From the NCBI GenBank assembly GCA_016841825.1, contig JAENYK010000020.1, forward strand, positions 1 to 61,611: a stretch of 61,611 nucleotides of DNA, read 5' to 3'. Under the pieces are notes generated by a model. It saw nothing but the letters and a program-made list of their open reading frames with translations, searched no databases and was not told the DNA's origin. Source of the DNA: Halothermothrix sp. Lineage in GTDB: Bacteria; Bacillota; Halanaerobiia; DY22613. How positions within the stretch are numbered: position 1 is the stretch's first letter; each line of letters starts with the position of its first letter. Shown one piece after another: positions 45,696-49,827 of the stretch. The position numbers and the translations under genes are program-made.

Positions 45696-45711
45696 ACGCA
45701 ACCGCTTGCGT
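45696..45711. promoter_or_regulatory. LacI-type operator O1
   Basis: ACGCAA-CCGC-TTGCGT, a symmetric LacI-family operator 18 bp before the regulator start. Confidence 0.75.
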
Positions 45712-45729
45712 ATCTTGCAGAAAAATATA

Positions 45730-45745
45730 ACGCAAGGGCTTGCGT
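45730..45745. promoter_or_regulatory. LacI-type operator O2
   Basis: ACGCAA-GGGC-TTGCGT, same half-sites as O1, centre 34 bp away (about three helical turns). Confidence 0.75.
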
Positions 45746-45831
45746 TTTTACTCTATTAATCAATATTCGTGCTCCACAAAAAATATCCTGCATACTTTCA
45801 AAAATTTTTAACAAAAATTTAACCCACAGGA

Positions 45832-45923
45832 TTATCCACAACTTGACTCCTCAATTTGCCGACAAACTCGGTTATCCTCAAAGTTATCCACATTATCCAC
45901 AATTTTTTATCCACTTATCCACA
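45832..45923 (+). promoter_or_regulatory. cluster of six DnaA boxes
   Basis: Perfect TTATCCACA at 45832-45840, 45884-45892, 45893-45901 and 45915-45923, plus one-mismatch copies TTATCCTCA (45872-45880) and TTATCCACT (45907-45915). All are on the plus strand, some abutting. The density is that of an origin or a DnaA-titration/regulatory cluster. No dnaA, dnaN or gyrB is in the window. Confidence 0.85.
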
Positions 45924-46141
45924 TAAAAACTGATAAAATAGTTCTGAGTGAGCATAATCTCGCTCTCAATCGTAATATTTCTGAAACTTAAGTATGTTTA
46001 TTTCTCATCTTTTATATCCAACCTTCGGTAAATTCAAAAAAGTAGTTAACATAGTTAATTATTAAATTAACATTCTCATTCACATAGAACTCATTTATCT
46101 AGCGAATGAATCGGGAAGTAGTTTAGATTTAAACATACTAA

Positions 46142-46167
46142 AAGGTATCCGCAAAAACGGATACCTT
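46142..46167 (-). terminator. terminator of arcC
   Basis: AAGGTATCCG/CGGATACCTT, perfect 10-bp stem, then TTAG on the minus strand; the T tract is short. Confidence 0.65.
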
Positions 46168-46177
46168 ACACACCAAT

Positions 46178-47122
46178 TTAATCAGAAATTATGACAGTGC
46201 CTTTACCATTTTCCAGGCCTTCCAAAGCATTCTCCAGAGAAGTAATAATCGCTTTCTCGCCACCATTTTCCACAAATTTAATGGCAGAAGCTACTTTCGG
46301 ACCCATACTCCCGGCTTTAAAATGTCCTTCGTCAAAGTATTTTTTAATTTCTGACAATTTAATGGTCTCAACATTCTTCTGTTCCGGAGTCCCATAATTG
46401 ATAGCAGCATAAGGTACATCAGTCAGAATCATCAATACATCGGCTTTAACCTCTTCTGCTAACACTTCCCCAGCACGATCTTTGTCAATAACTGCTTCTA
46501 CACCAGAATAAGTACAGTCATCATTAACGATTACAGGGATACCCCCACCCCCAGATGCTACTACCATAAATCCTGCACTTACTAGAGATTTAATAGCTTC
46601 AATCTCCACAATTCCCTTTGGAATAGGAGAAGCTACAACTTTACGCCAACCGCGACCTGCATCTTCAATCCAACTCTCACCTTTCTCAATCATCATCTTT
46701 TTGGCATGTTCCTCATCAAAGAAAGGTCCCACAGGTTTACGCGGGTTTTTGAAAGCCTCATCATTCTTATCAACAACCACCTGAGTTACCACAGAGACAA
46801 CAGTTTTATCAATACCAGCAGACTTAAGTTCATTCCCCAGAGATTGCTGGATCATATATCCAATCTGACCTTGAGTTTGAGAACCACAAATATCCAGAGT
46901 CATTGGCGGTACCTGTTTACTACCTGCTTCTTGCTGAATCAAAATCGTTCCAACTTGTGGACCGTTACCATGAGTAACAATCACCTTATAACCTTTTTTG
47001 ATCATTTTAGCAATCTGTCGGGTGGTATTTTGCACATTAGTAAATTGCTCTTCAGCTGTACCTTTCTGCCCTGGTTTGTTGATAGCATTTCCTCCTAAAG
47101 CAACTGTAATCACCTTTGGCAT
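46178..47122 (-). CDS. arcC: carbamate kinase
   Basis: Makes ATP from carbamoyl phosphate and ADP, the energy-yielding last step of arginine deiminase-, agmatine-, allantoin- or purine-degrading routes. 314 aa. TVALGGNAINKPGQKGTAEEQ, VTHGNGPQVGTILIQQE, VVASGGGGIPVI, EAVIDKDRAGEVLAEEVKADVLMILTDV and FKAGSMGPKVASAIKFVENGG are family signatures. No arcA/arcB or other carbamoyltransferase is nearby, so its source of carbamoyl phosphate is unclear. Confidence 0.96.
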   Translation of the reverse strand: MPKVITVALGGNAINKPGQKGTAEEQFTNVQNTTRQIAKMIKKGYKVIVTHGNGPQVGTILIQQEAGSKQVPPMTLDICGSQTQGQIGYMIQQSLGNELKSAGIDKTVVSVVTQVVVDKNDEAFKNPRKPVGPFFDEEHAKKMMIEKGESWIEDAGRGWRKVVASPIPKGIVEIEAIKSLVSAGFMVVASGGGGIPVIVNDDCTYSGVEAVIDKDRAGEVLAEEVKADVLMILTDVPYAAINYGTPEQKNVETIKLSEIKKYFDEGHFKAGSMGPKVASAIKFVENGGEKAIITSLENALEGLENGKGTVIISD

Positions 47123-48579: not shown

Positions 48580-49827
48580 ATGCAAAACAATACTGTAATG
48601 AAAAAACTTACTAAACCTCAGTTTGTAATTTTAGGTTTTCAACACGTATTTGCTATGTTTGGTTCAACAATTCTGGTTCCTACACTAACTGGTCTTAACC
48701 CATCTGTAGCTTTGTTTACATCTGCTGTTGGTACACTCATATTCCATCTGATTACCGGTGGTAAAGTTCCTGCTTATCTCGGATCTTCCTTTGCTTTTAT
48801 TCCACCAATTATTGCTGCCTCTAATGCTTACGGCGTACAAGGCGCTATGTTGGGATGTGTAATTGCAGGTCTGATATATGTAGTGATGTCTGGTTTTATA
48901 CGCGTGATTGGTTCTGATTTTATTAATCGTTTTTTGCCACCAATCGTCATCGGCCCAGTTATCATGATTATCGGTTTAAAACTGGCTCCAGAAGCTAATA
49001 ATATGGCTTCAGGTCATCTGTTGACTGCCCTATTCACTCTGGCTGTAACCATTACTGTAAGTATTTTCGCCCGGGGTATCTTTAAAGTAATCCCAATCCT
49101 GATTGGAATAATTTCAGGATATATTTTTGCAATGTTTTATGGACTGGTTGATTTGACTCCAGTATTAGAAGCTAAATGGTTTGCAGCTCCAAGTTTTACT
49201 TTTCTAAATCCAGCACAGATTGGCGATAATTTAGGCGCTATTCTTATAGTAGCTCCAATTGCTATGGTTACAATGGTAGAACACTTAGGTGATGTACTGG
49301 CTATTAGTAAGACAACTAATCAAAACTTCATGAAATCCCCAGGTTTACACCGTACTCTCCTGGGAGATGGTATTGCTACTGCACTGGCTGGTATTTTTGG
49401 TGGACCACCTAACACCACTTATGGTGAAAATGTTGGTGTTCTAGCCATAACCAAAGTGTACAATCCTGCTATTGTTCGTCTGGCTGCCACCTTCGTACTA
49501 TTCATGAGTTTTATGCCCAAAATTGGTGCCTTAATCCATTCGATTCCGATTCCAGTCATGGGCGGTATCGTCATCCTCCTCTTTGGGATGATCTCTGCCA
49601 TCGGTATGAGAACATTAATCGAAAATTCTATAGATTTGAGTGATACTCGCAATCTAATTATCATCTCTACCATCCTGGTTATCGGTTTGAGTGGTATTGA
49701 GATTATGATTAAAAGCGTACCAGTAAGTGGTATGGGATTGGCAGCGGTGGTAGGTATCTTTTTAAATCTAATACTGCCTAAAACTAAGCAGGAGAGTCCT
49801 ACTGAAGATTCAGAGACTGCGGCTTAA
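48580..49827 (+). CDS. pyrP: uracil permease (NCS2 nucleobase:cation symporter)
   Basis: 415 aa, about 12-14 TM segments. KPQFVILGFQHVFAMFGSTILVPTLTGLNPSVALFTSAVGTLIFHLITGGKVPAYLGSSFAFI at the N-terminus and GGPPNTTYGENVGVLAITKV with the substrate-binding Glu are typical of UraA/PyrP. NCS2 also includes xanthine and uric acid carriers, but the PyrR attenuator in the leader argues for uracil. AAGGAAAGG precedes the ATG; an internal ATG (residue 7) is an alternative. No other pyr genes are adjacent. Confidence 0.93.
   Translation: MQNNTVMKKLTKPQFVILGFQHVFAMFGSTILVPTLTGLNPSVALFTSAVGTLIFHLITGGKVPAYLGSSFAFIPPIIAASNAYGVQGAMLGCVIAGLIYVVMSGFIRVIGSDFINRFLPPIVIGPVIMIIGLKLAPEANNMASGHLLTALFTLAVTITVSIFARGIFKVIPILIGIISGYIFAMFYGLVDLTPVLEAKWFAAPSFTFLNPAQIGDNLGAILIVAPIAMVTMVEHLGDVLAISKTTNQNFMKSPGLHRTLLGDGIATALAGIFGGPPNTTYGENVGVLAITKVYNPAIVRLAATFVLFMSFMPKIGALIHSIPIPVMGGIVILLFGMISAIGMRTLIENSIDLSDTRNLIIISTILVIGLSGIEIMIKSVPVSGMGLAAVVGIFLNLILPKTKQESPTEDSETAA

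Follow-up and report, generated by a model that had tools for sequence, protein, structure and literature searches.

A conserved DnaA-box cluster outside oriC, upstream of a lacI-family gene in Halothermothrix, and its probable role in restraining replication initiation

DnaA-box clusters away from the origin

Clusters of DnaA boxes outside oriC (DnaA-box clusters, DBCs) are known from Bacillus subtilis (Okumura et al. 2012, cited in PMC5295017 and PMC13220808). Cells lacking six of them initiate replication early (PMC5295017, PMC13220808), and the role of the clusters is described as inhibitory, by sequestering DnaA (PMC11019786). The strongest in vitro DnaA sites of B. subtilis include one "downstream of gcp and ydiF", gcp being tsaD; purified DnaA binds it at ~0.15 µM, with a 16-fold preference for ATP at low concentration (PMC4447404). 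In E. coli, DnaA is tuned by the loci datA, DARS1 and DARS2, which are short non-coding box clusters outside oriC, as is the array described below. These loci require partners, for example IHF at datA. According to a review, B. subtilis has no datA, DARS, Hda or IHF (PMC13220808).

The array described here lies upstream of a lacI-family gene in a 61,611-nt stretch of the Halothermothrix sp. genome, which we refer to as the window. It belongs to an already known kind, the extra-oriC DnaA-box cluster: several boxes are clustered beyond chance, away from dnaA and oriC. Like the B. subtilis DBCs, it consists of several intergenic boxes away from dnaA on the origin-proximal part of the arm, a likeness in location and clustering. 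The genome resembles B. subtilis also in having a cluster at the tsaD (gcp) address. The lacI address, in contrast, is not among the top in vitro sites of B. subtilis (PMC4447404, Table 1).

The array upstream of lacI and its conservation

A box scan agreed with the earlier note, which had reported four perfect and two one-mismatch boxes on one strand within this stretch of 92 bp (Table 1). The perfect boxes start at 45832, 45884, 45893 and 45915, and the one-mismatch boxes at 45872 (TTATCCTCA) and 45907 (TTATCCACT), all on the plus strand. As had also been seen before, two boxes abut (45884/45893) and two share 1 bp (45907/45915). This overlap looks like a 1-bp indel, because the sister genome keeps an abutting pair in the best alignment register.

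The four perfect boxes are the only ones in the whole window, and the genome contains 109 in 5.08 Mb. At the genome's own box rate, four perfect boxes in 92 bp would be expected ~1.3e-7 times per genome, and dinucleotide shuffling of the 500-bp intergenic region, repeated 20,000 times, produced at most one perfect box. Counting such clusters across the genome had been suggested in the earlier note; among the 100 boxes listed of the 109, we found no second group of four within 92 bp.

We downgraded the shared orientation as strong evidence. It partly reflects a genome-wide strand bias: base composition predicts a 2–3 fold orientation bias of the boxes, and an orientation of 6/6 in one direction is therefore weak evidence alone. 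On each replichore of the sister genome, most perfect boxes point one way, and overall they outnumber the reversed control word ~2.4-fold.

The intergenic region that carries the array is A+T-rich, and the array lies 155–246 bp upstream of the lacI start codon. An RNA element at this position was considered and rejected, since no Rfam match was found at the cluster. Elsewhere in the window, a PyrR-binding RNA leader (RF00515, 48409-48530) precedes a uracil-permease-like gene (48580-49827).

Table 1. Positions in the window of the DnaA-box array and of the neighbouring genes and elements
Feature	Position	Strand	Basis
Extra-oriC DnaA-box cluster, six boxes	45832..45923	+	Box scan
Perfect DnaA box	45832..45840	+	Box scan
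Three-box module TTATCCTCA-AAG-TTATCCACA-TTATCCACA	45872..45901	+	Bacillota-wide geometry, starts 0, 9, 21 bp on the lacI strand
Second box pair, 1 bp overlap (abutting in the sister genome)	45907..45923	+	Box scan and sister alignment
lacI-family regulator, 74% identity to that of the sister genome	44688..45677	-	ORF and comparison
arcC-like carbamate kinase, 3' end towards the cluster	46178..47122	-	Named by eye from sequence
LacI-family operator, proximal, lacI strand CGCAAGCGGTTGCG	45697..45714		Kept in the sister and some other families
LacI-family operator, distal, AACGCAAGGGCTTGCGTT	45729..45746		Sequence comparison
Hairpin AAGGTATCCG/CGGATACCTT directly 3' of arcC, probable terminator	46141..46166	-	Identified by eye; no call in the terminator scan

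Conservation inside the family was assessed against one complete sister genome, the only other family member compared. There, lacI is preceded by six perfect boxes, and the gene order arcC, cluster, lacI, ugpC is kept. This is part of a longer common order of molybdenum-hydroxylase accessory-like genes, an ATPase-like gene, arcC, the cluster, lacI, ugpC, an isomerase, yabQ and divIC (names by eye). In the arcC-lacI intergenic region, two islands align well between the genomes, the DnaA array (E 3e-15) and the two LacI operators (E 9e-16), while the rest has diverged. The four-box core of the array matches the sister in 39/42 columns. A second alignment register of the array scores 6e-12, because the array is internally repeated.

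The earlier note had regarded absence of the cluster beside conserved flanking genes in close relatives as evidence against its reading. Absence is seen only outside the family, where no box cluster was found upstream of LacI homologues (up to 49% identical) in other families of the class and where, in the cases read, a different gene lies upstream; the sister genome keeps both the cluster and its flanks. The same operator occurs in several of these homologues. A LacI-linked regulation conserved across the class was rejected, as the homologues lack the box cluster. Since the cluster and its gene order are kept in the sister and LacI homologues of other families lack the cluster, the family has a conserved extra-oriC DnaA-box cluster. 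The restriction of the lacI site to this family, represented by two genomes, means that it is dispensable over longer times, a point against the reading as a brake on initiation given below.

The replication origin lies elsewhere. We found dnaA on a separate contig (C17), followed by dnaN, recF and gyrB (names from sequence), and the DnaA of this genome carries the canonical box-reading signature GGRDHTTV. The upstream flank of dnaA holds a dozen mostly one-mismatch boxes in mixed orientation, and further boxes follow after dnaA. Bacillota oriC, with its bipartite box clusters around dnaA, shares 9-bp boxes and DnaA with the lacI array. Unlike the oriC of this genome, which adjoins dnaA, the array has one orientation, mostly perfect boxes, no DnaA-trio run in the 40 bp after its last box and no switch in GC skew. 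It has neither dnaA nor dnaN as a neighbour, and gene polarity does not change here, as had been noted previously (lacI and arcC are both on the minus strand).

GC skew, which the earlier note had proposed as a check, is negative throughout the window (-0.06 to -0.26). In the sister genome, where it was sampled in stretches, one switch coincides with dnaA (2.98 Mb) and another falls between 1.1 and 1.25 Mb; the stretch that includes the orthologous cluster (3.37 Mb) has a skew of +0.256. That cluster is 389 kb from dnaA. At the level of sequence, the earlier view that the array is not the active origin is borne out by the separate dnaA, the uniform skew, the missing trio and this distance. The description "oriC-proximal" is correct for the complete sister genome, where the cluster lies at ~22% of the replichore; a corresponding location is inferred for the window's draft genome.

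A three-box module across Bacillota

Two further clusters are common to both genomes. One is located 3' of tsaD (C22:653276-653316 in the genome of the window, 88802 in the sister) and the other at hpf-comF (C43:188934 onward and 2404855-2404941, respectively). The lacI, tsaD and comF-hpf clusters of the sister lie 389, 666 and 576 kb from dnaA. In the genome of the window, the hpf-comF cluster shows the spacing 9-43 twice in succession. In the same genome, a zinc-dependent phospholipase C-like gene (name assigned by eye) is preceded by an extra-oriC box group of two perfect boxes and one one-mismatch box (C27:153466-153536).

We surveyed 46 tsaD loci over the phylum, a set made up of the best-scoring loci and 20 hand-picked ones and not a random sample. 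At least three boxes were found within 430 bp spanning the tsaD 3' end in 31/46 loci. Box density was 9.2 per kb at the 3' end against 0.45 upstream and in the gene, and 165/181 boxes at the 3' ends pointed one way. The distances between boxes on the same strand peaked at 9, 12, 21, 42–44 and 88–89 bp. The tsaD cluster is missing from most relatives in the window's own class.

The 18-bp double box TTATCCACATTATCCACA has 86 exact matches in 63 of 149 Bacillota genomes (reversed control: 0). Forty-one of these sites, in 39 genomes, are located 66–355 bp past a tsaD match, and 41/41 have the same orientation. Twenty other double-box sites were read; ~9 adjoin comF or hpf (names by eye from sequence), and several more seemingly share the same flagellar neighbourhood. 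The comF/hpf location is a second recurring address of the double box in several Bacillota families.

A third box accompanies the pair. It was tallied at 45 sites outside the window's family, some of them closely related, with a match threshold of at least 7/9, and was found at +21 from the pair start in 80% of these sites (consensus TGTtnATAAct) and in 0% at +20 or +22. In the module of the window, the third box matches in 8/9 positions, and the flank score has p = 0.00025 against random window positions. A fourth box often follows ~42–45 bp on from the second box of the module.

Spacing as constant as this suggests that DnaA assembles in a specific way. We consider the chances evenly balanced that Bacillota carry an undescribed composite DnaA element, in which two abutting boxes are joined by a third 3 bp on (starts 0, 9, 21) and often by the fourth. 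Such an element would have been kept for long at addresses 3' of tsaD and beside comF/hpf and placed beside lacI in the window's family, and its geometry would reflect a specific initiation-regulating DnaA complex and not passive titration scatter. For the 18-mer and the three-box module with conserved addresses, we found no description in the openly searchable literature, although an earlier one is possible.

Candidate roles of the array

The array is kept in the nearest relative, and its module recurs beside the same other genes; it is therefore probably a sponge or brake on the start of replication. We think it likely that DnaA binds this chromosomal cluster outside oriC and that initiation is thereby restrained. 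The earlier note had suggested a DnaA-titrating or regulatory cluster of the kind found near the B. subtilis oriC, and at the level of sequence this gains support from the origin being elsewhere, the uniform skew, the conservation in the sister and the cluster at the tsaD (gcp) address.

In this reading, the abutting pair and the third box would seed the loading of DnaA on the high-affinity TTATCCACA boxes, and a one-directional oligomer would form. Because the site sits in the origin-proximal part of the arm, the array should be duplicated early after initiation. Each new copy might capture DnaA otherwise available for reassembly of the initiation complex, and free DnaA, perhaps specifically ATP-DnaA, would be lowered by this sequestration until more is made.

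Alternatively, the array could mediate DnaA-dependent transcription control of lacI (and ugpC), which would tie sugar uptake to replication status while LacI autoregulates at the proximal operators. The position of the array in the lacI upstream region is conserved, and B. subtilis DnaA acts as a transcription factor at some sites (PMC4447404). However, the distance from the distal LacI operator up to the nearest box is ~85 bp, and none of the boxes overlaps a clear lacI promoter, the promoter scan giving one weak 9-of-12 match inside the array. Moreover, LacI homologues in other families retain the operator without a box cluster, and the module is also found 3' of tsaD, where a role in the tsaD promoter is impossible. 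We regard this explanation as possible but unlikely.

It is rather improbable that the array is a datA- or DARS-like locus that converts DnaA activity, its box geometry promoting ATP hydrolysis or nucleotide release beyond the action of a passive sponge. The stated absence of datA, DARS, Hda and IHF from B. subtilis (PMC13220808) argues against such a locus. In its favour, a geometry shared over the phylum (0, 9, 21, often ~+42–45 bp from the second box) points to a nucleoprotein complex of defined shape, and ATP-DnaA is strongly preferred at the B. subtilis tsaD site (PMC4447404).

A chance accumulation or low-complexity repeat without function is very improbable. A 9-mer can spread by short tandem duplications, and the site is confined to one family, but the array is conserved in register between two genera despite diverged flanks, and the module geometry is common to unrelated loci. 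Least probable of all is a second or relic replication origin, which dense DnaA boxes in A+T-rich intergenic DNA might suggest and which we rejected on the skew, the absence of a DnaA-trio and synteny, the origin lying separately with dnaA.

As a probable brake on initiation, the array bears on the question of how Bacillota, without the known DnaA switches of the E. coli type, keep initiation to one event per cycle. A module of fixed geometry at fixed addresses throughout the phylum would provide a short, defined DNA for in vitro study and defined sites to delete. The lacI array indicates that a site of this type can arise at a new address and then be conserved.
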